From: Allacma fusca | Lineage: Eukaryota > Arthropoda > Collembola > Symphypleona > Sminthuridae | Assembly: GCA_947179485.1 (NCBI GenBank) | Contig: OX359249.1 | Coordinates: 46,079,415-46,143,414, forward strand | Reading direction: 5' to 3' | Length of the DNA: 64,000 nucleotides | Position numbers and translations under genes: made by a program | Shown: piece by piece, positions 836-55,793 of the stretch | Position numbering within the stretch: position 1 is the stretch's first letter | Layout: each line of letters opens with the position of its first letter | Notes under the pieces: model-generated | Databases searched by the model: none | What the model was told of the DNA's origin: nothing | The model's input: the letters and a program-made list of their open reading frames with translations, nothing else

Positions 836-3800
836 CAATTACGTGAAGCGTCAGAACAAAGGAAAGAACTCGAGAGACAGCATGCCGAAGCTTTGGCTCA
901 GCTACGAGAGAAGAAAGATGAGGTCAACCGTCTCGCTCGACTCAGTGAAAATGACAAGAAAAAATCTGTGGATACAATCGAAACACTGCAGGTATGATTT
1001 CAACTTTCGTCGTTATTTCAGTGGATACATCGCTTCCCACGCAGCATGAAAAATAAACAATGCACTCAGTCGTCAACAAAAACACAAAAACTGTTTCTAC
1101 CGAATCAAGTGGATTCTGTACCAGCTCTCACTTTGTTTACACCTACCAACACCGACGAAAAATTCCGTGTGAAATCCAAGTGTCACATTTACATTTCATA
1201 ACACCCTTCTCATCATCAGTTAGACCAAATATCTAATACCTTCCGCATTTTTATACCAGCCAATCTGACTGACTATTGCTTACACAACTATCAGCCAAAT
1301 CCTATTCGTACAAACGTAACTTGTCTTGTTTTCATCATCTTGATGAAGGTGCTTACCACCTCTAGTAGCTGTTGAGTCTCACCCTGGAAGATGATCCTTT
1401 GGTCATTCATCCGGATGTGACTTTTAGCAGGAGAACATACAATTGTATGTGTACGGTTCAGTCGAAAACCGGAGACTTGACTATAATGTAATAATGACAT
1501 TTCTCTTCTATAATCCACGTTTCTACTTTCTCTGCCTGGTTACATTTCTATAGACAAGATTATTGTGTCCTTCATATTTTACTTCTCTACTTTTAGTATG
1601 CTCTTTATTGCTCGTTTTACTCAATTGCTTATCTCCCGCAGTCAAAAATCCGCGAGTTGGAAAAGAAGACGGAGTTGCAAAATGTTCGCCATGAGGAGTT
1701 GATGTTAGAGTTGGCAGCCCTGAAGCGAACCCAGCAATCTGTCCGTGCCTCATCTTCTCGTCCCTCTTCCCTGGGTCACTCGCCTCCAGACTCTCCGATT
1801 TGCTCAACTCCAGGTCAGAACATGTTTTCTCCGCAGATGTTTGTTCTTCCTCGTATTTGTCTTACACTTTGCTAAATACAACTTACTCTATATAGAATTT
1901 CCAGCAGAATCTATACTTCAATTTATGCTTACCAAATGTTTTCTAAGTAATCACCTAAATGTACTCTTATATCTATAGGTAGATACCTGAGTAGAAAGTT
2001 CATTTTTAAAGTTCGTCTACCATGTATTATGTAGTGCAGTAGTTCAACTCACTCACTGCCTTAGATCTTCGGTCACCGTTCACTCACACAAGTCACTAAA
2101 TAGTACACCCGTGTAGACCCATGTAACTTCCTATATGTATGAACGGTACAAGTACAATCTTCCACCATGTCCTCAACTGTAGATTCAGGCAGTAGTGATC
2201 TTTCAAATCCATTGTTTAAACAATATAGAATCCTACAAAAATTATTTACAGAACGGCACTGTGGATTAGCTTCTTTTGCAGCCACTCAATGATGTCATTT
2301 ACAGGATACTTTTTCGTTCCATTTCTTTCAGTACTGTTAATATGAGGACTGGATTTTCACTGTTGCTTTTCTTGCTACATATTTTCTATCTTTCAGTCTC
2401 TATACAATTATGAGAGCACCAAGTCTGCATCTGTCAGCACTTGCTATGTAAAATGTCAAAATAGGAATCATTCACTAGCAAAATCACGGCATCTTGATGA
2501 CACTGTAATTTATTTAGTCTGCATTTGGCTACTGGATAAGTACCCTATTTGTATTTGTGTGTAGTTGTAACTACCATGAGCGTACATACATATGTATACA
2601 TATAGAAAGTGTTCTTTTGGAGAGTTCTACATGAAGTTCGTGGATATTATCATGAGTTGCTGCCGCGCAGCTGTTTCCTTAATTTCTGTTCGAATTTTAT
2701 ACTGTAATTTTAAATTCACAACTAGTGTGGTGCTCCTTCTGTCCTGCTACATTCTGCCATTAGGATGACACTCTGCCAACGTTTTACACTCTGCACTTTA
2801 GTACTTAAGAGAAAAGTCTTGTTAGTCATAGTCGTGGCTTTGTGCATTAGTGACCACTTGACTATAGTCAACAAAAAACCACAGTATAACGGCATTGACC
2901 TGATTTCTTTTTCACTGGCCAGTCTAAAAATTCATGAAGTTTAAGTCTAGAATGCATCAGAGGAACCGTAGGGGTAATACCATTAGGGCCCAACATGATC
3001 GCACACAACGACTCCCAATAGCGATTCCTTAAATTTTAATCTCTTCACCCTTGGTTCATATGTACACTCATACATACATACATACTGTCCTGGCATAATA
3101 GAACTCTCATTTCCTCGTAAACTCTCATGAAAGACCAAATGACGTCATTTAAGTCCATAATTTTCCGTCTTGACCTTTTTTTCTTGCTGAACTTCATTTT
3201 CCGAATTTAAATAGTTTGATTTTAACTCATTTAGTTTTTTAAGGACTATTCGGTAGGGATGCCTGTACACAAAGTATCGTGATCTATAAGTTATTTTCAT
3301 TAGGGAGGGATGGTACTAAGGGATACAGATAATGGGACTTAAGGCATATACATGCATCGGGCTTGTTCATTCTGCACATAAGTAATTGAATACCAGGCCT
3401 GGAACAATTCTAAAGCTTATTCAAGTTTCAATTAGAAGCATTCATCATCTTTAGGGCATCCGCGCCGTGTGGTTATCAATATCGTAGACAAGGAGATTTT
3501 CTATTATATTTGATATAGAATGGGCAGACCTTTCATGTCTACTAGTCTGGTGAGCTAACGATTGATGGCATCTGCAGAATTATTATCGTTGAGCAGAGTG
3601 TATAAATGGGAAACAGAATCCCATGGTCCTAGCAAGATGTTGACCGGAGTATGCAGGCATGCAGAAACTGATAAGATTTCCCCAGACATTTTTACTCTGG
3701 TATTGCAAATAATAGGTAGTCAGTTACAAGGATGCAGGCAATCTGAATTCAGAATCGATTTTCGTAACTTACTTGGGCAGTAAATTAAAACCACATTGAG

Positions 3801-6800
3801 AGAGATATTCAGAGTCATATCTGAGTACCTTATGTAGGTTGATGAAAGTAAAGGAAGTCTGGAAAGAGTTGTAGTAAATAGATGTGTGTGTGTGAGTTTC
3901 TTTGACTAACTGAGACAATGACATTAGACTCGGTTCTGAGTCGAGGAGAGAGTACGACGGCACTGTCCACTCCTGTAGTTCCTTCACTGGATGCAATTTT
4001 GGAACAAGAACGACTTTCTCAATATCCCTCGCCTGGAATTTTCTCAAGAGGTATATCGTCATCTATAAAAACTGTTCTTCCCTTGCTCTTAATTCTCTGT
4101 TTTTCTTGTTATTCCTTTCTTTCTCTCGAGCCAGTATCCAATCTTGAGCGTACCGACAAGACAAGTCTAAACCCACAACCACATTTCCTCCAGCTTTGCT
4201 GATATACTCACAATCAGATAAAGCGCTTTCCCATAACCATCAACCATTTTCATGTTTTTTCTCATCAAGAGTGTTGTACCGCGTTTTGTTGGTGTCAAAT
4301 GGGATTTTGTCTGTGATCCTGATTATTTTCGAAATGTGCCTCTGTACAAAGAAATGTTTTTGATACCCCCCCCCCCTTTTTTTGTTTTTCTTTCACATAT
4401 ATATCTGTAACAGCAAAAATATACTGACTATCCGAGTGCTTCTAGTACTTACTTTCACACCTTATTTGAGAAGGACATGCAGCACCGTTGGGTGTTCAAT
4501 TTTTTGCTATGATTGACTGAGTTGACAACAGAATTTGTTTTGTGCGGACGCAGGGTCTTAATGAACTCAAGACTTTGCATTTAATTTTGACGTAATCACA
4601 TATTTTTCACTGACCGAAGTATTAGCTAAATTTTTTGAGTTGCTTGGTTGGTGGGGATGGAGGGAGGAGGCGCCTTTGGATTGATGTGTGTGAAATGGTG
4701 GTGCGTCAGGGCTTGTTCTGTATCACTGTCAATAGGTTCATCTGAACTTGGGAAATCGTTGCATCACGAAAGTATGCTTGAGTTGCATGATTCTTCTTTC
4801 TCGGCAGTGTGCTCCTCCTCGCTTGTCGCAACAGGTGTATTGTCCTACTCGCTTCCGCGGACCCACAAATCCTCCTTCTCCCCCCTGAGACACGGTAGGA
4901 AGCGTCTCAGGCGGAGCACTTCGGTCACCGACTTGACACAGCACAAGCCACTCCTCTCAAAGTCTCTCCAGTTTGATGACCCTATTGCTTCCAGTAATGA
5001 AATCGAACGAATCATAGCAAAAATCCAACAAGATAACAAGATTTTAGCTGAATTAGATAAGAATACTGGTGAGTCTTTCTCTTCTTCCTACTTCTTCTTC
5101 TTCTTCTTCTTCTTTGTTTAAATCTGCTAAAACATTTTGTTATCCATTACTCCTTTTCTTTCATTCCCTGGCACTTACTTTGATTTCACCCCTAAATGGC
5201 CGTTCCATGACCCAATATATTATTTTCTAGTGGTTCTATCTATTTATGAATTTTTCGTGAGCTAGTTTCAAGCTTCCCAATTTAGTACCTATCTCAATTC
5301 AAATAGCACGTTTACAAGATTTATATCCCTTTGCACACATTAGACTCGCTATTAGTTTAAAGTATATTCTAATGATATTTGCAAAAGTATATAAGTAACT
5401 GTTATATTTTTTTTTTGAATTTTCATACTTATGACTGTACCTGTATTAAATTCATTTCCTACACTTCCATAAATTGCATTACTCATGGTATGATTCGTAG
5501 AGATTCTTGCAGTTGCAATTTCGCATAGTGTAAACTCCAAAGCCAATACCTGCCAGAAATGTCAAAATAGTTTTTCAGGGAATATGTTGCTACGCAAGTA
5601 TTTGCATTCCCTCTTTCGTTCCAAAACTTACCAGCGTATGTATTAATAATGCACATGCCACTACATTTAAGTTGACAGCATATTGTAGACATTTGAATGC
5701 TGAAAGCTCATATTGTCAATATTATTATATTCTGTAGAACTACCGCGTATGTCTTTTAAACCTTTACCTATTTTTTTTACTGCCTGCACCTATTTGAATA
5801 TATGAATTCTAATGAGACATTGTACATAAATTGTACACCACAAAAAGCTTTCCCGGGCTAAGGTGGCTACAGCATTTTGAGGCTTTATAGGATAATTATC
5901 ACTAGTCCCTATTTTCTCTCATCCACTTCACTCCTATCGTAGATTGATTCCCTAATTTTGAGAAGAAAGTATCCATAATATGTGGCATATCCAGACTGCA
6001 GTACTGTAGGATTGACGGTAGGAGGATTGTAGTAATGAAAGTACGAGGAATCATAAATTGCTCTAAATTTAATTTTTTTCCCAAGCCAGTAACATTGCGT
6101 ACATTCTCATGTAGGTAACTTTTACGGCCGATTGATAGTGGAGCAAATAAAATAACGATTTTCCTAGCAAAGTAAATTAGACTCTCTCTCTCTCTCTCTT
6201 GTAGATTTCTTTAACCTCGGGTACCCTTTTCAAATTACCAAGACTCGACTGTGTATGATGAGATAAATGTAACCTTTCTCTCCCTCTCTTTCTCTGCACC
6301 ATTTACAAGGAGAAGTGGAAAGAGCACCGTTTGTAACAATTATTGCAGGAAATATGAAATGTATCTACATACATCAAACTACAACTTCCTTTGGAGGTAA
6401 CAGCGTGGCTCGGCGTAGTAGATGCTGTAATAAAATATGAATTTTGAGTTTCTCGAGTTGTTAACTCAATTTTGATTTACTGAGGGAAAATCGATATTTG
6501 TGGGAATTAGCGTGAACAAGGTTGTGAATTAAAAAGGAAATTGAAATGCTAATTGATTCCTCCTTGCTCATGTGGGCTATATATTTAGTGAAGAAAAGCA
6601 CTCAAAGGGACAATCGGTTCTACATTTAAATAATTTATTGCAGCTTTTAGCTTATAATAGTGATACTCATGAGAATTGAATAAAAATGTCTGGGCTCACG
6701 ACTCTCAAGTTTTAACATTTTCTCTCCCGTCATTTTTAGTAATGTAATATCAAAACGGCGAGAGCAGTAGTGTAAGAGTACATTGAATCAAATCCATGTA

Positions 6801-9800
6801 TCTACATAATTACTTATGTATGGTTTGGAAATCGGGCCTTGGGTTATATTTCGTAGGGCTGTAGCCCGCACACAGAAAGCATGTATTAGAAGTAAGTGCA
6901 TTACAAAACTATCTGTGTATGTACTGGGGTGTGCAATTTTGTCTCAATTTCAAAAAGTTATGTGTAGACAAGGGATAGGGGTCGGTGATGAGGCATTGAA
7001 TTGATGTTCTCCACGTTTGATTACCCTTAGTTAAGAAATTCCCGGGCGTACATCTTCAAAGATTTGGGATGAATATTCTCAAACTACTCCTAGTGTTCGT
7101 ATGAAGTGACGTTAATTATTATTTAAAGCTGGTGGCACGGTTAATACTAGGGAAGAGAAACCCTGCAGGAATCTCTATGCATATCGGTTGATGATTCAAA
7201 GGAACAGACAGGTAGTAGCTTAAGTGAGTACTAGGAATTAATGGAGGGAGTTGAGTGTACCCAAGGTGAAAACAGTTCGTTTAATTCTATACCCCTGTAT
7301 ATGTATGTAACAATATGAGTTGAGCGACACAAGTGCCATACGTTTCAATGTCGCAATATTTTTCCTAGGATTAATTGAGCTTGTTGATCCTTCCCCTTCT
7401 CCTGGCTCTAATTTGATTCTGGTTATTTTTTCTGAATCGTGCTTGCATGCAAAGCCGAGTGACTTGACTCGTGTTTTGTTGGGTTTCGCAGTGTGTCAAC
7501 CCCGTTTTCGCACCAATGTGAATCTGCCAGGCCAGAATGTGATTCCAGGGGCACGTAGGCGAACTTTACCCAAAAAACCGACATCAGCGAAACACTACAT
7601 ACCCAAAATTACTATTCACAATGATGCGAAAAGTAAGACATAATTTAGACTAGAAGATCCATGTCGTTATATATAGTTTAACATATATATTATAGTGGCC
7701 GGACGGAATGACAAATAATGTACTTAAATCTATTATGTATAGAACTTATATAGTTGCAAAAACCCAAAGTAGAGAAATACATGCTGCTCTACTTACGCTT
7801 TCTACTCCGTGGAAAAAAAAGATTTCCAGACGTCTCGCTCTCCTTTTCTCTCCCCCCGAAATTCTTATCAATGAAAAGTAGCACTGACGAGGCTTTATCT
7901 CGATCCTACCCTCTCTTCAAGATTCAATGCTTGGATGATTGAGTTAAGGAGTTGAATCATGACAGTGGCTGGGAGTACACATAAGTGCAGTCCATGTGGA
8001 AGGATACAGGGTTGTACTTATGTGATTAATTACTTACATGGAAGAGAAAGCGTGGGTTTTGATACAATTTTAATGCATTCTACCCGCATTTGAAGTCGAG
8101 GAAAGTTAGCTGTAGGTATTTGTAAAGACTTTTAGACGTTTTCAATAAGACTGTAACCTCGTACTGCCTACCTTGGGAAATCTAGACAACTGGCTTCCGC
8201 ACTTGTCGGCAGATTACTATAGGAGACGTCGCTATGTTTTGTTTAGTTTGTGTTTATGAGTACCGTCTCATCTCTATCCTGGTTGTCGTTTGACCTGTGC
8301 CTCTTTGAAGTAGTTGTATGTTACGTTGGTTTCTGACTGTCTGCCAGTCTTGCATTCCGTGAGTGACTGTCGTGTCAGATGTTAGGCTTGAAGCATTTAC
8401 TCTTCCTGGCTAATTGTTCCATATGTGTATGTAAATGTCCTCCCCCACCCCTTCTCTGATTACATGTGCACCACCGCTGCAGGCGACTGATCAAATGAGT
8501 CAATGTAATGTAATGGTTTCTGTACTTATTTATTTGTATGTATGTTTGTAATAATTATTTTAAAGTACACTTGCATTCTCAAAGCTGTATTACTCATCAT
8601 GCTTGGATTGCATGCAATTTAAAGGAATATTCCTCACGTACTTCAGTTCGCGAAAACTGCTGAGCAGTTAAGTAATTATGTATAATTTAATTATATTTAT
8701 GCTTTTGTTCTTCAAATAGTGGACATTTGTTCCAATCGGAGTAGCCGTATTTTTGTTGCTTCCTCTAGTTTCAGGGTGTACTTCGAGGGACTTGGCTGGA
8801 TTGTACGATCAACATCAACAACATCAGCACCATCACCACCAACAACAGCAGCAACAACATCAGCAACAACAACAACAACAAATAGGAGGTAGTCATCAGA
8901 CTACGACAGTGCAAACCCTTCAGAGTCTGGGTTCAGTGCAACCGTTTCAACAAATAGCAACTGTTCTACCAACAAATTTTTTCCCTGTCATTCCTGCGGG
9001 CACTATTTTTCCCTCGGCGGGACCAACTCTTCAGTCCTCTCATAATCAGCAACTTAACCCTCATTCCAATAACCCTGGAAGTAGTCATAATCCTTTGAAT
9101 CTTGTAGCTCATCAGAATCAGCCAATATCCATCCCCACAATTATCACCACTTCACACGTTGATGATCCCAAGAGTAGCAAAACAGGAGGTCGTCAACAAA
9201 ACAATCAAACCAACTACGGCATGGAGTATTCCAATCAAACCCAACAAAACCAAGGAGGAGGTAACGAGCAAGAGGGTGGTTACCTCCTCCTCCTCGGTTC
9301 AGTTCAACATCAGCCTAATCAACCTCAAGTTATTAATGGAAGTAATGTAATTATTGGGAAAAATCCCCATCACCAGCATCACCAAACACATCATTCCTCC
9401 CACTCACATCATCCTCATCAGCATCAGCAATCAATGAATAAAGGAGTAGACGTCCTGGACATCCCTGGAAAGGGACGTTGCTTCGTATATATTGCTAGGT
9501 TAGTAAGTCTATACTGTCTGCTGAGTTCAAAAGAACTGTCAGCATCAAACAAATTACATGCTTACTCGACATGGCTGTAACCACCTGTGCTTAACGAAAC
9601 TGTTTCCACAGGTATTCCTACGATCCTTTTCATCAGTCACCCAATGAGAATCCTGAAGCTGAGCTCTACCTCAATGCTGGAGATTATGTTCTTGTTTGGG
9701 GAACCATGGATGAAGTGAGTAGCGATTTTGTCCTAGTAAATGTCTTCTATTATATTGCTAGTAACTTAATAACTTTCACTTTACTGCCTACTACGGAGCC

Positions 9801-12800
9801 ATTACGTACATATTCTCGACTATTTGGCTCGGATTTGAATGGGTACTTGGTTTGAACTTTACATTGGGGATTCTAGGATGGATTTCTCGACGGTGAGCTA
9901 CTAGATGGACGACGCGGCCTGGTGCCGTCAAATTACGTCGAACGTTTGGTCGGTGAAGACCTGCTTGAGTTTCATCAGCAAGTCGTGTTGGGTATTAAGG
10001 AATCTGATGACTGTCTTTCTACGAGTCTCCATGACTTTGACTATCCTCGAGATGTACAAGATGAGTCCCAGCGTTTGATAATCGGTTAGTAGGAGGATCT
10101 CTAATCATTTTTATTATTCGAGTGAAAGTTTATGTTCAGGTATGGAGTTATAGGCTACGCTGACTTCTGTTATTCAGTTTAATATGGCTATAGTGTCGTT
10201 CGTGGGGTACTATATATAGATACATACGTATTTAGAACTAGAAGCTTCTTGATATTTCTCTCTAACAGTTCATATTCACGTATCTATATATCGTACAATT
10301 GTGATTCTGATTTTCATTGACATAGTCAAAGCTGTAAGTATTTTCTAGAAACTTAATTACTTTTCGTGTGAATAGATTTTGTTTACACTTATTGTATCTA
10401 TCTTCTATTATTTGATTCGGATCTTCAGCAGTATTTTGTGCTTTGGCTGTATTTTGCATTTAAGACAATAATTTTGAGATCAAGTAAGGATGACGAGACA
10501 TTACTTCAGCAGTACAGAATGGCATAGGAGGCAGAAGGGTCAGGATCTGTGGTAGTGTCAACAACAGAGAGGTGTAAATACGTTTACTACATTCATATAA
10601 AATCAGCTAATCTGATGCGAATGTCGATTTTGCAAAGAGATTTTTTAAAGTTTGTCTTGAATCTTCTGGTTTTGATTTGACTTAACCTTGGTTGATACTT
10701 TTATTAAATTGAGCTCTAAAAGCCACAATGCTTGGTCAAGAACCCATAAGTAAATTTTGTGATTTCCAACAAGATATCGTACCATGTGCGTAAAAAGAAA
10801 GGTTCTTCCGATATTTCAAAACTATTTTTTCTTTACAAATATTGGCTTTTGAGATTGGAAAATATTTTAGTAGTTGACTAGGCTGACTGAATTGTGTAAT
10901 GTTGGTGGTTGGTTGGATACTACATATGAATGCATGTTCGATGTTGTCTGCATCTTTATAATTGATTCTAGTCAAGAGCAAGAATCGCATTAAGAGAACC
11001 TTGCCCCCCTTGGTGTGTAATCAACAGGACGTTTTCCGAAATCGAGGTTTGTCTCTCGTTCCTTCCTTCTGACTTACAATCAAAGAATCAGTTGAGTATA
11101 CAGATCGTAAGAGTGCATGTCAATTATAGCCATGCATGCATTTTGGTGTCCTCTTACCCCAACATCTTACAATGTAAAAAGAATTTTTAACCACCAGCTC
11201 CGTCTCATGACTTCTCATATCACAGATGTTCCATGAGGTTCGGTTTTTAAACACTATTTTCCGTGTGCGTAAACCCATACCTCGCCAAAATTCCAACCAC
11301 TGTTCACTCACACACCTTGTTATTTTGTTTACGGTTGCTCTTACAGAAGAACTCATGAACAGACGCCAGGAGGAGTATGGGTACTTGGATTTGGAAGACG
11401 TACTAGATGATGACTCGGATCCCGAAAAACATGGTTAGTTGAAAGTTTCCTTCAAACAACTCATATGCAATGCAATTTAGAGAGAACACGTAGTAAAGAC
11501 CCTGCATGTTTGGCACTGATTGATTCTGATAGACTTATTCTTCTCGGTGCTAGTACCTCCCCCAGTGCAACTCACTCTGGAAAGACAACTTAATAAAAGC
11601 ATCCTTATTGGTTGGAACCCACCCGACTGTCCGCCTGGTACCGTCGAGAGCTACCAAGTTTATGTTAATGGGCTCCTCCGATGCACTGTCAAAGCCAACG
11701 AAAGAACACGGGCTCTTGTAGAGGGCGTTGACTGCAATAGAGTAAGTTTTTCTACCCTCACTGAACGCTTTTTGATGCAATTTAAGCAAACAAAATTATC
11801 TGTACTTGCCTGATTTTGATCATCCAAACCGTCGTGTATGTCAAAGACGAACAGACTACATTAACGGCATGTTCTTGTAAATGACACTCTTAGCCGCACA
11901 GAATAAGTGTTCGGTCTGTGACACCTAACCGCAGAACATCCAGGGATGCAGCATGTACAATGGTAATAGGAAAGGACGCACCCTTGGCTCCTTCTTGTGT
12001 AAGGTAATCAATGAGAATGTGCGATCTTGAAATGCTACTTAAGCCTGTTTCTAGATAAGCACTAACTGAAATGAATTAATTGGTAACTCCAAAGGGCGAC
12101 CAACGTAACCAGCACCTCCGCTGCGATTTCATGGCTTCCAAGCAATAGTAACTATCAGCATGTAGTTTGTGTTAATAATGTGGAAGTTAGAACAGTGAAA
12201 CCAGGGGTTTACAGACATACCATCACGGGTAAGTCAAGTGTAGGGAGTTTCTTTGGGAATTTTTTTTCCTTACATGTTTCGGACTTATACAATAACTTGA
12301 GCTTTCTTTTCTCATTGCCGCTTGAAGGGCTTACACCAAATACAACCTATCGAGTGACAGTTCGTTCAAAGAATATCAAAGCCCCGCATTTCGATGAGAA
12401 GAATTGTAAGCAAATGGAAAAGCTGTCATCTCATACAGAATTCCGAACGTTACCAAAAGGTATTAGTATAATTACTTAAGCGTTTCTGTCGTAGACACAT
12501 GACAAAATATTGACGTAGATGTTCCTATGCTTCATGTTACTTACTGTGGTCTTGTGGTGGTCCTTTGAGCCTTTTCTGTGTGGTTTACTCTTTGAGGTTG
12601 TTTAGGTTTACCGGATCCACCCGTTGACGTTCAAGTTGAAGCTGGGCCACAGGATAATACGATTCTCGTCACATGGCACCCAGTTACAGCAGGCACGTCA
12701 AATGGAGCTGTCGTCACTGGCTATGCAGTTTTTGCGGACGGCAGAAAAATTCTTGAAATTGACAGTCCATCCGGTATGGAAACTTCGTTAATGATCCTGA

Positions 12801-16703: not shown

Positions 16704-16705
16704 TA

Positions 16706-26703: not shown

Positions 26704-33320
<6,617 letters not shown>

Positions 33321-34884: not shown

Positions 34885-34892
34885 CTGTATAC

Positions 34893-35482: not shown

Positions 35483-35490
35483 CTGTATAC

Positions 35491-42600: not shown

Positions 42601-42830
42601 GCAACCGTAGAGCCCGTAGAGGCTACGGCAGCCATAGCTAGCCTCCGTAAAGCCGTTGGGCGGAGGCAGACTTGGCCGGCCTCCGTACAGCCGTTGGGCT
42701 ACGGCAGACATGACTGGCCTCCGTAAAACCTTTGGGCCACGTAAGCCAGAGCTGGCCTTCGTAAAACCGTTGGGCTAAGGCACCCATTGCTGGACTCCGT
42801 AAAGCCGTTGGACTACGGCAGCCATAACTG
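42601..42830. repeat. GC-rich 38-bp minisatellite, six units
   Basis: One 40-bp unit (42601-42640) is followed by five 38-bp units starting at 42641, 42679, 42717, 42755 and 42793. Each begins near GCCTCCGTAAAGCCGTTGGG and most go on CTACGGCAG. Within a unit CCGTA..GCC pairs with GGGC.TACGG, so each repeat can form a small hairpin of about 8 bp. The block is strikingly GC-rich against its AT-rich surroundings. Open frames on both strands across it are a by-product of the repeat, not genes. Confidence 0.92.
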
Positions 42831-42911
42831 CCAAGCCGTGGACCACTGTGAAACCCACTGGGTGACGGGTCACGGTCACATTGCTGTGGCCAGTCTCGGC
42901 CACACTCCCAT

Positions 42912-42952
42912 GGAGGTCTCCAGAGATCCAAACTCAGGCTCTGGAGATCTCC
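42912..42952. repeat. 14-bp stem inverted repeat (hairpin)
   Basis: GGAGGTCTCCAGAG (42912-42925) is matched by CTCTGGAGATCTCC (42939-42952) with one G-T pair and a 13-nt loop. It lies about 80 bp after the 38-bp minisatellite, in the same GC-rich island. Confidence 0.85.
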
Positions 42953-43084
42953 TCTCTGCAGGTCCTGCTGCCTCGGCATCTCAGGACCGACTGATTTGTT
43001 TTCAGGTTGGGTCTGTCCGTATAGGTGTTACCATATTTGAAACTTTCTTGATCGTTGTTTATAATAGTAAACGAGAACTGCACA

Positions 43085-43101
43085 GCCAGCAAATTGCTGG
43101 C
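43085..43101. repeat. Perfect 8+8 bp palindrome GCCAGCAA-A-TTGCTGGC
   Basis: A one-base-centred perfect inverted repeat. Degenerate copies of the same hairpin recur near 43366-43385 and 43600-43620, inside the duplicated module described separately. Confidence 0.8.
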
Positions 43102-43318
43102 TTAGCGAGGAAAATGTAAAAAGGGTAGACAGTAAATAACAGTTGTATGCAATAGCTAGCTGCACAACCCTAGTAAATGTGTAGAATAATGTACGGTAAA
43201 ACGATTTTTTCATTTAATTTTGCTTTAAATTTTTTAAAATGATTCTTCTAATTTGAAAGAGTGAGTGGGCCGTCTTGGTTGTGGACGGCTGCCCGTGCAA
43301 TGTCGCCGCCCTTGCTAC

Positions 43319-43425
43319 TGTATAATGCTTTTAATTTTTTTAGAATAATTTTCGTAATTTATTTAGTCAGCTATTGCTGGCTCAGCAAATAAAATAAAGC
43401 TCGGTTTTTGAATCTCAAATCCGCA
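43319..43425. repeat. AT-rich module, copy 1 of a direct repeat pair
   Basis: This starts GTATAATGCTTT, runs through T/A tracts to an imperfect GCTATTGCTGGC hairpin and ends near TTTGAATCT. The same order of blocks recurs about 220 bp downstream at 43539-43656, so the pair is a diverged direct duplication. No family assigned. Confidence 0.7.
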
Positions 43426-43538
43426 AAAAAATGTAAAAAAGTTTTTTAATAATTTCGAGTTATTAAGACTTTTTAACATCCTTTTTTCATTTTTGAGCAA
43501 CATTATTTTTATTAAAAAAAAGAAAAAAAGAAAAAGCG

Positions 43539-43656
43539 CAAAACAGTATAATGCTTTAATATTTTTTTTAATTTAAAAAAAATATTTTAATAATTTATTC
43601 AGCCAGTTATTGTTGGCCCAGCCAATAAAAAAAAGCGCGCCAAAATTTGAATCTTA
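43539..43656. repeat. AT-rich module, copy 2 of a direct repeat pair
   Basis: Second copy of the module at 43319-43425: GTATAATGCTTTAA, long A/T tracts, CAGCCAGTTATTGTTGGCC, then AATAAAAAAAAGC and TTTGAATCT. Divergence is moderate by eye. Confidence 0.7.
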
Positions 43657-44829
43657 CCATCACGGACACGGACACGGAGACTATCCACTCTTTCAACTTA
43701 GAAGAGAGGATGTTTGGGGTATTTCCGTGCTTAGACGACGAACCTGAAAGAATTTTTTCCCGGAAACGTATTGTTTCAGAGGTCAAAGGTTTGCTCCGTA
43801 TCTACTGTATTGTGTGGCATACCCCGTGTACACTGATCGCGCTCCTTCATAATTACTTATTTTTGGTGAAACCTTAAACATACTGCTCTTATTATTCCGA
43901 TTTTAAATGTTGCTAAAGTATCTATTCTAGCGGGTCTAATCAGCACCAATCTGCCAGTGAAAGCTTTGATTTTGAAATACCGATGTCATCAATTATGATG
44001 GGTCCCTTACAAATGGAACTGATAACACGATGTCACATGTATCATTGTGTCATAAAATTTTTGTTTGACGTCATATATGGACACTCTTTTACTCATACGA
44101 ACACGATTTTCCCTTGAGCCTTTTCTTTCCCTTAGCCCCAGTACCCACGATACGATATGTTGTATAAAGGGTAGCACGGGCTTCCAAATGATGGAACCGT
44201 TCCTACAACCTGACATCCTTTTGAATAATAAATTCAATAATATGCATTTATTACAGAGCTTAACAGCATAAATACTTTTATCCATGAAAACAACTGACTT
44301 CACCTGAAAACATTGAAACCCCATACTATTTAAAACTACACCTTTGTCTCTTCCTGCAAGCCAGGAAAAAAGGAAATACAAGCCTTTCCTTTTACAAATA
44401 AATCCTGTGAGAAGTCAATGAAAAAATCTTATTCCAAAACTGAAAGATCATATACTCCCAAGTAGTAACTAGTTAGCGAATTAAAATTAAGCAGCACCGG
44501 AAATAGGCTTCACAACGAAAGATCATTTCGGTTTAGGAAAAACATGCTACAGAGAATACATACCAAATAAAAAGTACGTACTTATGTTGTCATATTCAAA
44601 TGGTCGATTAAGTCAGAATGCAAATTATATCTTGTAAAATCAGTGATTCAGTGATTCATTATGATAATATTGTGTTACATATCCACTTATTCATAGAAAT
44701 GCACTATTGACTATTGTCCCTTTTAATTCTTATCTTCAGAACTTTAGGCTAAATGTGTTTATTCTATAGATGATAGACCCGTAGGTTTTATCCCATGATC
44801 ATTCCCAACAGCCACAACTTCGCTCAGGC

Positions 44830-45003
44830 CAGGGGTGGATTCATAAAAGTTTTTACCCTGGCCCTAAGCCTCAAAATAGATATGCTGACCTTTTCACATC
44901 TAATCTCTGGGTCTTCACTAATTTATTTTTACCATGACCCTAAATCTTTTATCCAGAGGGATTATTTACGGGGGTCAGAGTGGTCCCCGTAAATCCACCT
45001 CTG
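44830..45003. mobile_element. hAT-like miniature element, 174 bp
   Basis: The left end is CAGGGGTGGATT and the right end, read inward, CAGAGGTGGATT. The flanking 8 bp match at seven of eight positions (GCTCAGGC at 44822-44829, GCTCAGGG at 45004-45011). The interior has no coding capacity. Near the right end a perfect 10-bp inverted repeat, ATTTACGGGG and its complement, can form a hairpin. The tip resembles those of the elements at 57251 and 58596, suggesting a related group. Confidence 0.75.
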
Positions 45004-45011
45004 GCTCAGGG

Positions 45012-47658
45012 TCAGATTCAACAAAAACTCTATTAAAACCAGCCTACATTTGTGCAACGAACGCACAACAGAACACCGGGGTGGGAATTGGTAAAAATAA
45101 GGACTTTTATAATGTATTTATAAGGAATCACGATATTTGTTTGACGTGTGTATTTTGAACCAACATTTTATTTTCAAGCTTTCAAGTACAATAAATACTC
45201 TTTTCGTAACAATGTTCTAAGCAGTAATAACAATAATAATAATTAGTAATAATATTCATTTAATATATTTTCTATTAATAATAACAATTATTATTATCTA
45301 ATAACGATGACGTCCGCGTCAATCCATCCTTCATTTTGATCTCGCACAAGGTCCAAATTACAAATGATCAATGAATGGATACATTTTGAAACAGGGTCGT
45401 CGTCACTGTCGTCAGAGAAACTATTTTTGTATTTATAAAAAAGATGTGCCTTCAAAATTGTAACGTTCAGAATTCAATGGCCCAATTCCTCCGACCTCCC
45501 AAATACTTATTCGGAAGTGTTTTTTTTACTACGGAGTAGGAACCATTCCCGCGTAGATTTTTGAAAAGTATATGAGTCCGCGTCGGACCAATTGGAATGG
45601 ACTTTGAATGCACTTGAATACATGATAATAAAACGGAGTGTGCAGTAAAAGGCGGATATGTTGCAAATCACTTTCGCAAGATCTCATCACATGACTCCCA
45701 GACGTCACAGCTTTCTCCTGCAAAAGTTCGGCCTAAAAAACTCGTCAAACGAAATAAATGGTGTCTATGTACGATACGTATAAGTATAGTTACTACGTAT
45801 ATAGAGTCCGAGTGTCTTCGTGTTTTTTTTTCGAGTGACTTCATCAAGTTTAAAGTCGTCAGAGTCAAGGAATTTGGAAGGATAGTGAACAATAGTTGAA
45901 TGTGTAGAGATCAGGACGTTGATAGTCTGTACGTTGTCGTTCTGCTGGGACGTTGTAGTGTTGTAGTAGTGCGGTGCAGTTGTTATACGAGTCAAGTTGA
46001 GTCTTAATAGCATTGATGTGCTTTTAGTGTGTACAGTGTACAACTGTACAGTATATAGAGACAGGGTCGGTTCACTCGTTTAGAACATTTTGAGGAAGCC
46101 AGATATAAACATATGAAGTGAGGTTCAGTCTCTGTCTAGTATTTGAAGTACATCTCTGTGTCCTTGAAATTTTCCAGGTTAGTTTCTCCAAAACTGTCAT
46201 CCGAGTCAAGTGTGTTTTCATGTTCAATCTGTGATTTTGTTCCTGTGCGGAAGAACTTGGAGGAGTAGTCAGCCTGTTAAATTAAACGTGATTGAGACAG
46301 GAGACTATGAATCAATTCCTCAGTGTTGTAGTTGAAGGAATACAAACGAAAGGTGGGTCCGAGGTCCGACAAGATGTAAATAAAACTCATGTGTAAGATT
46401 AAGATAGGTGACAGTGGGTACACTAATTGTAATTGATTGAGTGTAGTTAGATTAAAGTTGTGACACTTCGTTGTGATATTTGGTATTAGTAGGTTATTAT
46501 GCCCGACGCTGTCCCTTGATATAGTTGGTTCTCATGCCATTGAGATTTTTTGAAATTAATATTTTCTCGAGCGGGGAGGGGGAGGGAGGGGAATTGTTTA
46601 TTTTCAGTCCAAGTTTTATCAATCCCGAATTGTTGTGCCTGAAATAAACATGATAAGGACGCGGACGCAACGACAAACCCACATGAACATCATGAATCAT
46701 GTGAATATGTATAGAGGAGTTACGTGTGGGGTATAGTGGTATAGGACAGAATAAGTGTAATTATGTGTAGGTGAAAGAACATATTCAACTTGCTCTATTT
46801 GTGTGAAGTTCTGGATATACCTATGGTTGGGAGTTAATATTTTTTATCATTGCGGTTGTCGTTGCTTGATCACGCAGTTCGTTTTGTTTATCTTCACGTG
46901 AAAATGATCTCGAGTGATGTGATGTAAAGTTGTATTTTTTGATGGTACTGACAAATCTTGGGATTGGAAGTATGAGTTGTAGTTTTGACCGTTCAAATTT
47001 TTGTGATAACTTTTTTAAACTTTACATAAATACCTTGTATGTGTTTGTAGTTAAATTACAACGGCTATAATAGCTGTATTTTGGGGTAGCGTGCTTCACT
47101 TTTGGTGTTACTAGTTAATTTAGCGGATGACACCTACTGGGGCGTTGATTTGATTTCTCTGTGGAATGCTTTGCTTTAGAGAGTATAGTGGGTTTGTTTT
47201 ATTATCAGCTATTTAGTGTCTTGACCGTATCAAATAATAATCAGAGTATAGAAATAATATAGAGAGCAGTGAGCACTGCACTGTAAGCAGAGCGCTGTGC
47301 TTGACGTAGCAAATTATTTGTAAGATTTGGTATACGAATTTAGGTTTGTAGGTGTAATTAAGTTTGTTCGAGGGAATATATTCAGTATTGGAGGTGGAAT
47401 TTGTCGGGGAGTTAATTAGGTGGGTGTAAGTTCCCAGTGTGAAATTACTATGTATATATCTTTGATTATTTTTGAAGGAGAATACGTGTGAGCATAGTTA
47501 CAGTAGACTTGTGTGATTAATGTAAGTTAAAAATGATAGTTCAAAGTTGAAGATGCAGCTGATGTGGGATGTTTAGGACAGTGCTAGTGACACTGTAATA
47601 ATCATTTGAATCTTTTTTCCATACAGGGTTGTGAATCTACAAAATCAGGATCTTTGGA
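45012..47658 (+). promoter_or_regulatory. 5' flank, probable 5' UTR and first intron of the RNFT-like gene
   Basis: There is no coding sequence of family character. A polypyrimidine tract and acceptor (TCTTTTTTCCATACAG, ending 47626) lie 32 bp before the start codon. At least one non-coding exon must therefore lie upstream; its donor could not be placed. The sequence from about 45900 on has frequent GT-rich stretches. Simple AAT/ATT runs occur at about 45225-45305. Confidence 0.45.
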
Positions 47659-49996
47659 ATGACAGACGCAAATAATAGCCGAGGGGGATCTGGTGGTACT
47701 GAAGAAAACGGAAATAACAATAACAATACAGAAAATAGACGAGTTAGCCCAAGATGGAGATTCGACCTTGATCTCAACTTTGATCCTAGTTGGTTAGTTC
47801 CTCAAACAGGGTCAGGGCGACAAATAGCCCCTGCTCTAAATATGTTAAATGACTGGATGAGAGCACCGTATAATTTTCGGAGATCAAATTCGGAAACCAA
47901 TGACTTTCGTCCCTCGACAACAAACACAGCTACTTTTGACCAATCAGCACGTACTCGTTCAGCTAATACGATCGGTCGAGGGCAGCAACATCCAACGGCT
48001 GCTTCTATGATGACACCGACTGCACCCGGAGATTCCCCATCAGCTGGTCAAGTGGTCACTCAAACTATGGCTAGTGCTATTCAGGGATATCTTTCACAAT
48101 CCTCAGGAAATCGCCCTAGGTCTGGCTATCAGAATATCACAGTTGAAAACAGTACTTCAGGTAATTATTTCTAAAACTAAACGACAGGTAGAACGTTTCG
48201 TCTCTAAAAAATGTCTTAACAGTAAGAAATAACAAGGAGTGAAGTAAAATTGATCGTGGGGTAGCGAATATTGTCAGAATATCTGCTATGGTACTTTGTG
48301 CTTTTAAGCAATTCCAGCCTTTTAACGACAGCTAATTATATATGTATGTTATAATAGACAGACTTGACAACTAACGTGACTGTTTGGTTTTGTTTCACTA
48401 CTTAAAGGAGGAAATCAGAGTAATTCTGAGTCCTACGTTGTTGACATGGAGTCAGAAAACTGGCCACCGCCGTCTAACGTACATCATCAAGGGGGCCTAA
48501 CTCACGTTCACACACATAATCACAATCACGACCACGGTCCAGAGGAGGAACGAGAACGGCGTCCGCAAGCAGACAACCCTCGGCCTGACCCTGAATCCCC
48601 CACCACGACCCCCGCCGAAATCTTTCGATCGAGTCCTGAGGGTCAAGCGATTATTTCTGTGGCAGAACGATACTCTCCATTTTTGCTTATTCTTCTTATA
48701 AAGGTTGGCAATGTAATTATTAACGCATACCTTGCCACTTTGAACAGGCACATTTATTGTGAAGAGGAGTAAAAATATATACATCGGATTGTGCAAGTCT
48801 GGATAATAATATATTTTGTTTCTACCCCAGGGACTGTTCGATCACGGCAGTGGAATTGTATGCTTCCTCGCACTACTTTTAACCTTTTCTCATGCGAATT
48901 CTCTTTTCAAGAAAGAAGTTAGTAAACAAGGAAAAAGGAAGTTATCCTACTTACTAATGATCACAGCGAATCTTCTTGTCTGCATGGGATTCATTTTTTA
49001 CGTTTACCAAGACGAAAAATTATATTTAGGGTAAGATTTGATGTGATAAACGCTTTCCTCCCCAACATTATCAGTCTGAGTTTTCCTAATCCCGACAAAT
49101 ATGTATAGATACTTGTACTTTTAATTAGCTTTATAGCGATTTCAGTTAGTTTTCATGAAATCATTTATTCACTACAGATTGCTGTTTCTTCCAACTCGAA
49201 CTCCTATTTCATCGATGTGGACTATGTTTTGGGTTACCGGTGTTGTGGATTTCATTGCGAAGTTTATAACCATCATAATTAAAGTTTTTGTATTAATTTG
49301 TCCTGGACGAATATGTCCCTACCAAAAAAGGGTGAGTTTGTCATTGCATTTGGGCTTCACAAGTTTACTAGTACAACTTTCTTAAAAATACTTTTGACGA
49401 GCCAAAAGGCTCCAAAATTCGAAATTTGGGTTGATTATTACAATTGATAATTTTTATAGGGGAAATTTTATCTCTTCGTGGAACGTACATCGCAGCTTTA
49501 TAGAACTGCCATCCCTGTGTACTCTTGGGTTCAGTATATGTCAGGTACCTACGAAGGGCCATCAACGTTGATTGGGGGTGTTTTAGTTCTCCTGTACTGT
49601 GCCCTAAAATTGAGTGATATATCGAAGCGCTATAAGCACTGGAGAGTTGCGTTTCGTAAAATGCTACAACAAGTGGTAATTTCCTTTTTTTCTTATTTTC
49701 CGCATTTTCTCGAATTGAAATCTTAGTATTTAGTAAGTCTAAAACCAGATACTTTGTTACAGCATTATGGTACTACGCCGAACGAAAGTGAACTGAAAGA
49801 AGCTGGGGATGTGTGCCCAATTTGTCATGACAGTTTTCATGACCCTACTAAACTTAACTGCAGCCACATTTTCTGTGAAGAATGCGTAACTACCTGGTTT
49901 GATAGGGAAAGAACTTGTCCTATGTGCCGAGCTCGGGTTGTGGATGATCCTAGTTATCGGGATGGACAGACGACACATTTTATTCAGATATTTTAA
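47659..49996 (+). CDS. RNFT2: RNFT1/RNFT2-type RING finger transmembrane E3 ubiquitin ligase, complete coding region, 6 coding exons
   Basis: A membrane-bound E3 ligase; human RNFT1 and RNFT2 act on the ER and other endomembranes. Coding exons: 47659-48160, 48408-48703, 48831-49030, 49178-49331, 49460-49675, 49763-49996, giving 533 residues with consistent phases. The ATG at 47659 opens a hydrophilic Asn/Ser/Thr-rich N-terminus. A His-rich patch, HVHTHNHNHDHG, follows in exon 2. Several membrane segments follow, for example FLLILLIKGLFDHG, LSYLLMITANLLVCMGFIFY, FITIIIKVFVLICP and STLIGGVLVLLYCALKL. The C-terminal C3HC4 RING (about 474-515) shows CPICHD, NCSHIFCEECVTTWF and CPMCRARV. Human RNFT proteins are about 435-445 residues; the extra length is in the N-terminus. 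The sequence does not decide between RNFT1 and RNFT2; this is probably the single pre-duplication ortholog. Confidence 0.94.
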
Positions 49997-50907
49997 TCCC
50001 GCTACCCTTCCTGCAATATTGTAGTTTTCTTGAATGACAGCTGAATGACTGATTGGGATTGAAAGTAATGCGATTTTCTGTGGTACAAATAGGTAGTCTG
50101 AATTTGTTTTAAGGTTGTTATTATGTTACTCAGGCGATTCCGTTGCAAAAACGATGCGATACGAGATAACTGCAAGCTGTAATTTGTATTATACGTGCGT
50201 ATTTATTAAATGATTGTTGAAACACTCCCCAGGCAAGGAACTACGATTTTATTCAGGGTTTCCCTCGCAAGAACTTTATTTTGTTGTTTTCGGCAGAAAC
50301 GTTCCTTGGTAGGCGTACTCATCTTTTCTAGAGTGATTAAGGTGGTATTAAAATTATTTTATCCGTCCTCCACCCTCAATATTTATATTGACATCGTAAC
50401 ATCGTTTAAACTTTTTCTTTTGATGTAGTATAGTATCAATTCGCAGCCACATTTATTAGTTCTGTGCCACATTAGTCATCGTAGTATTGGAATTGCATTG
50501 ATTTTCTAGCTTGTGTTTTTAGTCATTTAAGACAGTTTGTCAGCCTGGAGAAACTCTTCGATTTAGCAATTAATTCCCAATATTTACATTCGAGCTCTGC
50601 AAACTGGAAGACAATACTTAATTGCTGTAAGTGCTTGCATGCCTGTAAACTTGGAAGTATTGCTCAAGGATATTTTAATCTTTTGCAACTATTTATTTTT
50701 GAATCATGTGACGTCCTAAGACTTCTTAGTTTTAGTAATGCGCTGATTTTCAAACTAAACTTTGTAAAATTAAATCACGTCATCATCAGCTATAGAACAA
50801 TAGTTTGTCAAACGCGTAAGACTTCAGAAAGAATCATTCCGATTGCTGTAATACCACATCTTTTAACCAACTTGTAGCAATCTTAAGCAAGATTTGTTTT
50901 ATTTTCA

Positions 50908-50913
50908 AATAAA
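50908..50913 (+). terminator. Candidate poly(A) signal AATAAA for the RNFT-like gene
   Basis: A canonical hexamer about 910 bp downstream of the RNFT stop on the same strand. It is one of few AATAAA copies in that stretch, so it is plausible but not proved. Confidence 0.35.
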
Positions 50914-51293
50914 TCTCAGTATCTCACCTTTTCTGGTCAGTGTTGTTAATTTAAGTTTCACACGAACGATTTTACTTTCGAATATAGAAAGGAGAACTGG
51001 TTAATGCATCGCGTAAAGATTTGAAAGTTTTTTGGTTTTACATCTGGGTTAAAAAAAGCTCATTACTGGTTCCATATAATAAGCTGGTATTCTTACAAAA
51101 GCAGTACAAATACTTAGCTATGGATAAATCAGTAACTAAGTAACGAAAGCCATTCACAAATTGTGACGACAAAAATATACCAGCCATTTCACATTGCTTA
51201 TAAAATTTATTTCCTCACACTACGTCCATTACAACTTTAATAGGATTATTGTATTTACTGATTGACAGGAACTCGCGTCAGAAAACTACACAT

Positions 51294-51299
51294 TTTATT
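51294..51299 (-). terminator. Candidate poly(A) signal AATAAA for the ARL6IP4-like gene
   Basis: A canonical hexamer on the minus strand 87 bp after the stop codon at 51386-51388. This gives a short 3' UTR, which suits a compact last exon. Another copy lies further on near 51207. Confidence 0.45.
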
Positions 51300-51385
51300 A
51301 TCAGAAACCACATAAATTACATAATAATTTAACACAGTGCATTACTCAAACAACTTATATTAATACACATACATTCAATCATACG

Positions 51386-54300
51386 TTACTTCAACTGGGG
51401 TTTCAGCTGTAACTGAAACTGAAGCCCATCTTCTTTAGTAGCAGCCTTATTGATATTCTTATGTTGTTGCTTCGAAACAATAGACTCAATAACTTCTCCA
51501 GATCCTTTAATGAGCCTAAACAGAAAAATAGAATTAAGCAAATCCAGCATAAATCAGTGCTCGGACTGGGTACGGGTAATACTCGGGTAAATGGGTACGG
51601 GTACTGGTATGGGTACTACCCGGGTACAGAAGTTGCGTACTCGCAAGTACGCGGGTACTACCCGGGTACTCTTGATTTTAGGCAATAAAGTGGGTACAGG
51701 TACGGGTACGGGTATGGGTACTCACTCAGTGGCAATCGGGTAGTACCCAATGGGTACGGGTATCACTATGTAAAATGCCTGTACCCGTGGGTGCTGTACC
51801 CGAGTATTTTTGGGTACTTCGAGGATTCCTGATGGGATGGATTACTATGGCTAACAATAAGACCTACCAACCGTGGAGTTGCTTATTTCGTAGTATACAG
51901 ATACTTGCGATAGTGACAGAGCCAAGTGGCTTCGTCTCATTTATGATTACGTGGTAGTTTTTTACATGGTAGTCTAATAATTCATCCAAGGAATCTAATA
52001 AAGAAATAGAGCGTAGAGTCAAAGAAATCATCTGTTTATCGAATTAAATAGTGAAGCTCATCAACGAAGAATTTCAAGAGGGAGGTTCTTGGGATTCAAT
52101 TTAATTAGCTTCGCGTAACATTACAATTATTTGAAGACGTATTACGAGATAAGATCGGAATAAATTTACATTTATTAGCAGATCCATTTCTTAACGTTAC
52201 AAGTACCCAGGGTTGCCCATTTGAAAACGCCAAGGCATTTTATGCAGGCAATTTGAGCATTTTCAATTCTGGGTATTTATGACACTTTGAGTATTTATTG
52301 GGGTGAATATTTATAACATTTTAGAATGAAAATTTTTCGAAAATCTCCGTCTCGGGCTTCATAAATGTGAAAGACAGTTTACGAATGTTTGTTTTATAAA
52401 GCTGTAATATAAAATGAATATTCAATATTGCCTCCCACATTTATTTCCTGAAACCGCAATATTTGACTTGGAAAAATTATGATCAACTCAATTTTTCCGT
52501 ATAACATTTTCTATACACAGAGTTCGATTAGCCGGAAACAAAATTGTTTCGTGTTCTCCAATTTGAAAAGCAAGTTATGGAGAGTTTAGTATTAAAGAAT
52601 CCGTCCCAATTCCAATTAGCGAGAACACATTTCATTTCATTCAGCAAGTTATTATTTTGGGGTAGTAGGATTTGAATTTGGTCAGTGTTTATTAAAAAAA
52701 TCCCAAAATGCGTTAAATAATTTTTTCAAAAAATTCAAATAGGATGTCTTTAACGCCTAGGGAAAATTCCCAAAATCCCGGGCACGTGGAGGTCAAAAAA
52801 TTGACAAATTAAAATTTTTCAGCTGGGCAGTATAATGTCGTCGGGGATTTTAAATCGGCCAAACTTCCAGTACCCGAGTAATACCCGGGTACAAACAATA
52901 GATACTCGGGTACGGGTGCAGGTTTTGGGTACATTACGGGTACGGGTAAATTTTGGGTACAGGTACTACATTGTATTTTCAGGTACGGGTACGGGTACCG
53001 AAATAATTTACCCGGGTACTTGGGTATGGGTACGGGTATAGGTACAGCATTTTGTAGTACCCGATATTCGGGTACGGGTATGGGTACGGGTACACGGTTT
53101 CTGTACCCAGTCCGAGCACTGGCATAAATACGCATTGCATTATTAATGTAATAGAGTAGTGGCAGTGCCAAGTTACCGGACTCTTCCTGTTTGGTCATCT
53201 ACAACTTTACGGATGACACTCTGCTCTTTCTCCCACTCGTGCTGAGACTTTGGAGCGTACTTTTTGGATTCTTCAATCAACTTTACTGGGTCCGGTCCTA
53301 TTGTTTTACTTTCATCTTGCGCCAAGATTTTAGTTTGCACTGGCGTCGATAAAGGCGTTGAAGTTATTTTCTTCTTGTCTTTACGTTGGGACTTCTTTTT
53401 CAGTTTCCGACTCTCCGACTTCTTGGTTTTCTTGTGTTTTTTCTTCTTTGATTTTTTACTCGACTTCCTTTCTCTAGATTTCTTCTTCTTTTTCCTTACG
53501 TCGGAAGCTGTTGAAGAATCGGAATCTGAAGAAGACGAATCCATACTATCCTTGACTGGTTTAGTCTTTGAATTGCGCAAATCGTTCGATTGAGCTACTG
53601 TAGAATCAGTTCTTGAATCCTTCTTTGTGGGAGTACTACTGTTACTTACTTTCCTGGTTTCACTGTTTTTCTGGGAATCAGAAATGTATTTACCAGGGTA
53701 TGTCTGATCCTTAGAAAATCGAGAACTCTGATTTCCTCGAGTTTTATTATCTCTGTTGAATTTCAAGTCTGAAGTAATTTCATCTTTACTGCCATAAGGA
53801 ACGAGACTGAAATCAGCTTTTCCCTCTCGTCGGTGTCCATGGTGGTTGCTTGACCGTTCATAGTTTGGAGAATTGCAAGAAGTTCGTCTTCTGGAAATAA
53901 CTTCACCAGAGGATTTAGAATTTCTGCTAGACTTTGAGGTTTGGTACGCAGAAAATATTGGTTCCCTGGATCTTGATCTTCCACGTGATGATGTTAGCAT
54001 TTTACTCCGATAATGATAGCTATCACGGCTCCTGGAATTAGACCTTCTTGAACGTCGCTGAGCATACCTCCCACTTGAATTACTTGATTTCATTTCTCTA
54101 TGTCTCGGAGAACGACTTCTGGAGATAGATCTGCGGTGTCTGCCTTGGTTTCTGTAATAATTATCTTTCGACAGTGATGTCCTCCGTCGATGGCCAACCC
54201 TTCTTTCACGTGAAAGCGATCTACTATATGAGCTTCTGTGATTTTTCTCAGCTGAACTAGATCGTTTGTCACGCTTACTATGTTTTCTTTCCATTGACCC

Positions 54301-55793
54301 ATGCTGCTTCCTCTCCTCTCTTATTTTATCATCTCTACGTAAAGTAAATTGACGCTTCGATATTTTTTCCCCCGAGTTGGATCTCGAGCGGCGAGTTTTA
54401 TTTCCTTTTATTCTAGATTCGGTCTTATCGCTGGATGATGATCTACTGCTGTCAGATGGTGACCGGGAACTAGTTTTTTTAGAAAGCAATAGATGCTCTC
54501 TGGATTTCGATTCTTTCTCTCCTGATTTCGACAAAATACGGGTCGAATCATCTTCATTTGTTGCAGACAAGCGTTGGTCCCGACCTCGTCGTTTCGTTTC
54601 TTGCATTTGTGACTTGCTCTTATGATTTGACTTGTCATTCAAACTAGACCCAGTGAGAGATTTCGACAATGCAGCTTTTCTGGATCCCGCGCGACGAGGT
54701 GAATCCCTTGAATCCTCGCTTGAACTTGATGTCGCTTTTGAAGACGTTGATGATGACCTTTTACGCGTTGACTTTTTTTGCGACACACCTTCTGTACGCT
54801 TTACATAACTTGCATTAGCTCTCGAGGGCTCGGAAGAACTGGATTTGCAGCGTGTGCGACTGCTTCTTTCAACAGACCTCGATTTTCTGAATTCCTCGAA
54901 ACGTGCTTCACCTGCAGTTTCAGAATTCAGATTAACTGATAGTATTTCCTTTCCCCCTGATTTCAATAATGTTGTCCCACCCACACAGTCAGCTTTCTCC
55001 TTACTATGTTTCTCATGCAGATAAGTTGATTCACTTGTTTTCACCGCCAAGCCTTCAAGGACTGCTGAATTTTGCACCTTATTCCGCGGATCCAACTTAG
55101 ATGTAGTAGTATTTGACGAAAACTCGTCACCGTTAATCTCAGGTAGCCTTTGGCTAACATTTGAATCATCTTTTGATTCAGAAACGGAAGTTTTCACTAT
55201 ACTTTTAGAAAACTTCCCCAGTTTTTTTAGAGGGGAAAAATCTTCGGAGTCGACTTCACCGCCACGAAACGATCTACGATCATCAGAATCCGACCCAGAC
55301 AATTTCCTCCTCTTCTTTGTCCTCCCGTTCTTCTCGTCACCTGATGAAAACGAGGCCGCACGGTTGGAATGCTCGGTTCCTTTTCCTGCTGAATCATGAA
55401 TATATTCAAAGTAAATATTCAAAAACCCATAATATTTACATCCCACAACCTGCATACACATGTTTACCTTTTTTATTTTGCTCACTCCCTTTACCCTTGA
55501 GATTTCCATCTGAAGATTCCGAGTCAGAGTTGGAGGAACTACTAGTTGACGACTCTGTGGAATAACACATTGCCCAATTACACAGCTTAATAAAATTACA
55601 ACAATAAATTATTACTATTATTGATAACCACGACCAACGGAATACTGGTTTGCAGTTAATTCTTTTCAAATAAATAGTTCAAAGAACAGTCTCTTGAATT
55701 ATTCTAGAAAAAATCATCTGCACCAGCAATCCATTGCGCTAATTTACCCGAGTCTGACGTCGGTGACCGGCGAGACAGTTTTTTCTCACTCAT
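51386..55793 (-). CDS. ARL6IP4: ARL6IP4 (SR-25)-like RS-rich nuclear protein, complete coding region, 4 coding exons
   Basis: The family is serine/arginine/lysine-rich, nuclear/nucleolar and linked to splicing. Exons 5' to 3': 55793-55748, 55554-55468, 55388-53177, 51515-51386, giving 824 residues with consistent phases. The protein starts [11 protein letters not shown]. It runs through a very long low-complexity Ser/Arg/Lys/Asp region with many RS, SRSR and SS repeats, then a Lys block ([15 protein letters not shown]). The identifying part is the conserved C-terminus: [19 protein letters not shown] is followed across the last intron by [29 protein letters not shown] and the stop. Human ARL6IP4 has the closely similar EWEARQSVIRRVVDPETGR, then LIKGDGEVLEEIV. 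At about twice the human length (about 421), the expansion is in the RS region. The last intron is almost entirely a hAT-like element. Exon 3 begins at a CAGCAG acceptor. Confidence 0.88.
51562..51826. repeat. GGGTAC/GGGTA hexamer-rich array, left subterminal zone of the hAT-like element
   Basis: Many GGGTAC, CGGGTA and complementary GTACCC copies, partly as head-to-head pairs such as TACCCGGGTA. Motif density is far above background and is mirrored in the right zone. Subterminal repeats are known transposase-binding sites in hAT elements; here they are unusually amplified. Confidence 0.85.
52866..53110. repeat. GGGTAC/GGGTA hexamer-rich array, right subterminal zone of the hAT-like element
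   Basis: Counterpart of the left array, with runs such as GGTACGGGTACGGGTACC and TACCCGGGTA. It ends in the right terminal inverted repeat at 53121. Confidence 0.85.

Follow-up and report, generated by a model that had tools for sequence, protein, structure and literature searches.

Four neighbouring genes of Allacma fusca (RIMBP, USP32, RNFT-type and ARL6IP4) and their linkage on human 12q24 and 17q22-23

Introduction

The closest described systems to the locus reported here are of several scales. Simakov et al. (2020; PMC7269912) describe the ancestral linkage groups of bilaterians and chordates, in which linkage is conserved and the order inside the groups is largely scrambled. Holland et al. 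(2007; PMC2211742) place HNF1A (12q24.31) and HNF1B (17q12) in human regions that were duplicated early in vertebrate evolution, with LHX5 (12q24.13) and LHX1 (17q12) listed alongside them. Metazoan microsyntenic blocks have been defined by a rule of three or more orthologs separated by no more than five other genes (PMC8851819), and the Ran-Stx pair is published as linked with vertebrate Rimbp2 (PMC6177115, PMC7565545). The surroundings of Rimbp itself were surveyed by Coppola et al. (2020), who found Rimbp, Rab3gap1 and Chmp2 as a triplet in both Ciona and Phallusia, with Mul1 near Rimbp in Ciona and Halocynthia. Their vertebrate Rimbp2 and Rimbp3 loci are without synteny, TSPOAP1 being put in the Rimbp3 group, and they suggest a local/independent or gnathostome-age duplication, with genome duplication named as a possibility. 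Statements that rest on these papers, and on others also drawn on (PMC9012598, PMC4256931, PMC6445783, PMC11867633, PMC5607249, PMC2749870, PMC6669545), refer to excerpts of the published texts.

The window analysed here, a stretch of 64,000 bases from the genome of the collembolan Allacma fusca, contains four multi-exon animal genes within positions 836-55793, these being a RIM-binding protein gene (RIMBP, + strand), USP32 (- strand), an RNFT-type RING ligase (+ strand) and ARL6IP4/SR-25 (- strand). Like the ancestral linkage groups, it is a case of unrelated genes on one chromosome with scrambled order, but here the comparison covers just four genes in one 64 kb window of a single invertebrate. 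In the 12q24/17q duplicates, RIMBP and RNFT have copies on both arms; however, the published 17q examples are at 17q12, while the human relatives of the present genes are at 17q22-23, and the RIMBP2 and TSPOAP1 loci are those found to be without synteny by Coppola et al. (2020). As in the metazoan microsyntenic blocks, unrelated genes adjoin each other and collinearity is not required. The Ran-Stx pair near RIMBP2 is a further published case of ancient neighbours, but no Ran or syntaxin family match was found in the Pfam-scanned parts of the window.

Results and Discussion

The four genes and their order

The orientation of the genes along the block alternates (+ - + -). Their structures are our own splice/codon models trained on exons picked from the window, and as such are an aid rather than independent proof. 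The outer bounds fit these models, with a RIMBP exon at 836-991 and the ATG of ARL6IP4 at 55793. The preliminary description had put RIMBP, USP32, an RNFT-type gene and ARL6IP4 within 55 kb with no other gene between them, and this holds as far as the window was scanned with Pfam and Rfam. Family-specific support was obtained for RIMBP, USP32 and ARL6IP4, the RNFT-type gene being named tentatively from a RING match and RNFT1/2-like motifs. Searches with RIMBP and USP32 pieces found no relatives in viral_contigs, nor did one with RIMBP in genome_contigs, neither of these being collections of animal genomes.

RIMBP (836..16481, + strand) is modelled with about 21 exons, from the coiled-coil exon through to a stop at 16481. 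The position of the 5′ end is uncertain, possibly outside the window, and the weaker modelled exons at 129-210 and 391-431 are doubtful. Pfam identifies an fn3 domain (12093-12377), an Ig_RIMBP2 domain (PF25523; 12605-12992, E-value 9.5e-24) and two SH3 domains above the curated cut-off (14072-14161 and 14556-14675). The RIMBP architecture of an SH3, three FN3 and two SH3 domains is thus present, with the first SH3 as a partial match only (SH3_9, 9874-9942, just below cut-off). A hand-edited model piece of the FN3 region matches the Drosophila RIM-BP structure 6q9m with 391 bits, along residues 8-301 of 6q9m, and further PDB matches of the piece are 4z88, 4z8a and 2csq (RIMBP2). That the best PDB match is from Drosophila suits a protostome without being proof of one. 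There is also a weak match to Pur_ac_phosph_N over an fn3 repeat, which lies below the Pfam cut-off and was taken as chance or overlap. A CAA/CAT-rich repeat (8810-8881) in a RIMBP exon encodes a run of Gln and His.

The deubiquitinase gene USP32 (26704..33320, - strand) was identified by its Pfam domains and by its Cys box (29636-29701) and His box (26973-27065). It possesses the USP32 architecture of a USP32_N domain (PF25265; 33007-33144), EF-hands (match at 32090-32158), DUSP (30561-30773) and UCH, the last in two parts (28655-29704 and 26967-27749), all on the - strand. The nearest PDB match of the catalytic piece is USP15 (6cpm, 276 bits). Its start is most likely the in-frame MGNKES at 33320, and its end most likely at 26704. 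Because of this start, two extra 5′ exons proposed by the splice/codon model at 34.2-34.4 kb were dropped.

The third gene (47659..49996, + strand) encodes an RNFT-type RING E3 ligase, assigned from Pfam RING families and hydropathy, in which hydrophobic segments precede a C-terminal RING (49811-49930). Two hydrophobic exon candidates (approximately 48927-49025 and 49179-49331) are absent from its splice/codon model. The PDB matches of this RING are generic RINGs and no RNFT-specific Pfam family matched the gene; the RNFT name is therefore tentative, being based on motifs taken to be those of RNFT1/2. A weak match to Androglobin_IV in the region, below the Pfam cut-off, was again taken as chance or overlap.

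ARL6IP4 (SR-25 family; 51386..55793, - strand) is modelled with four exons coding for 823 residues, with an SR-rich middle and a conserved C-terminus. The SR-25 family (PF10500) matches the last exon (51407-51517, 45.8 bits; cut-off 40) and, below cut-off, 53170-53256, both on the - strand; on a joined piece it scores 110.5 bits, which places the product in the family.

Intergenic regions, assembly and regulation

No further gene was found in the gaps between RIMBP and USP32 (16482..26703) and between USP32 and RNFT (33321..47658), and Pfam at E<=0.1 gave no family in these or in the RNFT-ARL6IP4 gap (49997..51385) beyond those of the four genes. The scans covered both strands of the gaps, minus ends of up to 204 bases on one strand, and each gene on its own strand, with 53350-55600 left out on either strand. 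Rfam and a tRNA search using the bacterial code gave no matches. Codon scores were compared with 100 mononucleotide shuffles of the USP32-RNFT gap (mean 9.1, 95% at 11.4), and the maxima of the RIMBP-USP32 gap (9.0) and RNFT-ARL6IP4 gap (4.7) were at or below the shuffled level. In the USP32-RNFT gap there is one coding-like peak above the shuffles at 42.64-43.11 kb (29.4 on the - strand, 21.2 on the + strand), which partly overlaps a 38-bp tandem array of 5.8 copies (42605-42825). The coding-like stretch extends approximately 280 bases past this array with no Pfam match, and might conceivably be a small open reading frame of no known family.

Repeats were also observed elsewhere. Short tandem arrays of 17- and 42-bp units (GGTTCCGG-like) lie in the right flank at 58079-58199. 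The codon scores also peak at 58.0-58.5 kb, but these peaks overlap tandem arrays and were set aside as probably not true coding sequence. Inverted repeats occur as two pairs, 57377-57476/58710-58809 (76% complementary) and 16703-16789/17339-17425 (72%), and are perhaps the ends of old transposons. An open frame at 61535-61930 (+ strand) shows similarity to part of a transposase of the Tc1/mariner type (Sleeping Beauty 5cr4, E-value 4e-4); as it has no Pfam match at E<=0.1, it is probably a decayed remnant.

An assembly misjoin could also bring unrelated genes together. This would be a very improbable origin for the neighbourhood, given that the 64,000 bases contain no runs of N and no large direct repeats, G+C is steady at 0.32-0.44 and the gene models are intact.

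The spacing of the genes bears on whether regulation could hold them together. RIMBP and USP32 lie tail to tail with 10.2 kb between them, USP32 and RNFT head to head with 14.3 kb between start codons, and RNFT and ARL6IP4 tail to tail with 1.4 kb between stop codons, and therefore no short promoter is shared. A bidirectional promoter was considered for USP32/RNFT, the only head-to-head pair, and rejected as the distance is too long. Constraint could instead be exerted in cis if enhancers of one gene, in the RIMBP introns or in the USP32-RNFT gap, were placed among the others as in genomic regulatory blocks. Such a mechanism is known in general, Ciona Rimbp introns are reported to drive neural expression, and the two larger gaps leave room for it. 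However, the classical target of such blocks, a developmental regulator, is absent by Pfam from the scanned parts of the window, and the alternating orientation, with its sole head-to-head starts so far apart, gives no shared promoter. Cis-regulatory constraint is accordingly considered an improbable explanation.

Human relatives on 17q22-23 and 12q24

The six human positions given in the preliminary description (RNFT1, USP32 and TSPOAP1 at 17q22-23; RNFT2, ARL6IP4 and RIMBP2 at 12q24) are correct according to the excerpts of published papers. A table from an admixture study gives the order BZRAP1 (an older name of TSPOAP1) ... RNFT1, HEATR6, CA4, USP32 for a 17q22 region, and a microdeletion case at 17q23.1-q23.2 gives RNFT1 ... 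HEATR6 ... CA4, USP32. The stretch from BZRAP1 to USP32 comprises 25 listed genes, of which 20 separate BZRAP1 from RNFT1 and two separate RNFT1 from USP32. On chromosome 12, RNFT2 is listed for a locus at chr12:117.3 Mb, ARL6IP4 appears in a gene list for 12q24.23-q24.31, and RIMBP2 is at 12q24.33, in a variant at 130.6-131.1 Mb. What this trio has in common is no more than the 12q24 arm, over approximately 13 Mb, by positions taken from papers whose builds possibly differ. RNFT (RNFT1/RNFT2) and RIMBP (TSPOAP1/RIMBP2) thus each have one copy on 17q and one on 12q24, while among the genes seen USP32 is on 17q only and ARL6IP4 on 12q only, with one copy each.

The earlier proposal, that one ancestral cluster was split in two by vertebrate duplication, stands in part, in that the positions are right and 12q24 and 17q are published duplicates; that two duplicate human regions derive from one ancestral region is, as a general claim, already in print and not new. 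The part that called for a tight ancestral cluster of four genes was not borne out, as the linkage on 12q24 is at the level of the arm only, and the 17q trio does not form a microsyntenic block under the published rule, its 20 genes between BZRAP1 and RNFT1 exceeding the limit of five and only RNFT1-USP32 being close. The absence of synteny reported by Coppola et al. (2020) also weakens, without disproving, the idea of one block which was duplicated and then divided; on a larger scale the two arms are published duplicates. The four-gene linkage itself was not met among the literature matches listed, which is no proof that it is unpublished. The names of the four genes were not found in PMC7060516, nor were RNFT, USP32 and TBX2 in the available excerpts of a hagfish paper (PMC10972751).

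Another reading is that the neighbourhood is young or due to chance, the genes having been joined in this lineage, or being random members of one ancestral chromosome, with the human likeness recognised post hoc. In its favour are the choice of the pattern after the genes had been seen, the wide spacing on 12q24, the position of the 17q trio outside the block rule and the ascidian Rimbp, which in the excerpts of Coppola et al. (2020) sits with Rab3gap1, Chmp2 and Mul1. These other ascidian neighbours also count against an inherited neighbourhood, but the ascidian case is weak evidence, because tunicate genomes are reported to be fast evolving and that of Oikopleura extremely scrambled. Against a young or chance origin, human RNFT1 and USP32 are only two genes apart, and random placement across the genome is very unlikely to give the human trio.

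This last point was quantified with a null model in which two RIMBP, two RNFT and one USP32 were placed at random among 20,000 genes. Of 20,000,000 trials, 375 brought all three families within 25 genes (approximately 2e-5). A second null assumed one ancestral chromosome and four paralogons of 300, 200 or 150 genes, sizes that are themselves assumed, and gave the trio in 911, 2,106 and 3,432 of 200,000 trials respectively, with three paralogons of 300 genes giving 1,631 of 200,000. The odds of the human trio under these same-chromosome nulls are 0.5-1.7%, uncorrected for the after-the-fact choice. RNFT and USP32 with at most two intervening genes occur in 1.2-2.3% of same-chromosome trials and in approximately 6e-4 genome-wide. 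The models ignore further copies (RIMBP3, USP6) and carry no correction for the pattern having been noticed first; with sizes assumed and post hoc, they clearly favour a shared ancestry of the linkage and weakly favour leftover local proximity. Taken together with the comparisons above, a young or chance neighbourhood is possible but rather unlikely.

Probable inheritance of chromosome linkage

The neighbourhood is probably best explained, if with some reserve, by inherited chromosome linkage with leftover proximity. The four genes would descend from one ancestral animal chromosome on which inversions would have gradually changed the gene order in every lineage, leaving some of its genes still close together in A. 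fusca and, after independent reshuffling, on human 17q22-23 and 12q24. Such linkage would be older than the divergence of protostomes from vertebrates, with perhaps nothing but inertia keeping the genes together. Full scrambling of a shared chromosome, taken alone, sits uncomfortably with the human trio, given its low odds under the same-chromosome nulls, and to this extent argues against the explanation.

The proteins belong to unrelated processes, RIMBP acting at synapses, USP32 in deubiquitination, RNFT in membrane ubiquitination and ARL6IP4 in RNA splicing, and a claim of coordinated function of the four genes is not needed for inherited linkage.

If confirmed, the neighbourhood would be a further gene set among the known examples of deep chromosome linkage, and the 12q24/17q duplicate pair would gain a small marker that is simple to check. 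RIMBP is of particular use in this respect, as the published survey argues for a local or independent duplication of RIMBP2 and TSPOAP1. Were RNFT copies linked with them on both arms, this would rather speak for an origin of these two genes by whole-genome duplication.
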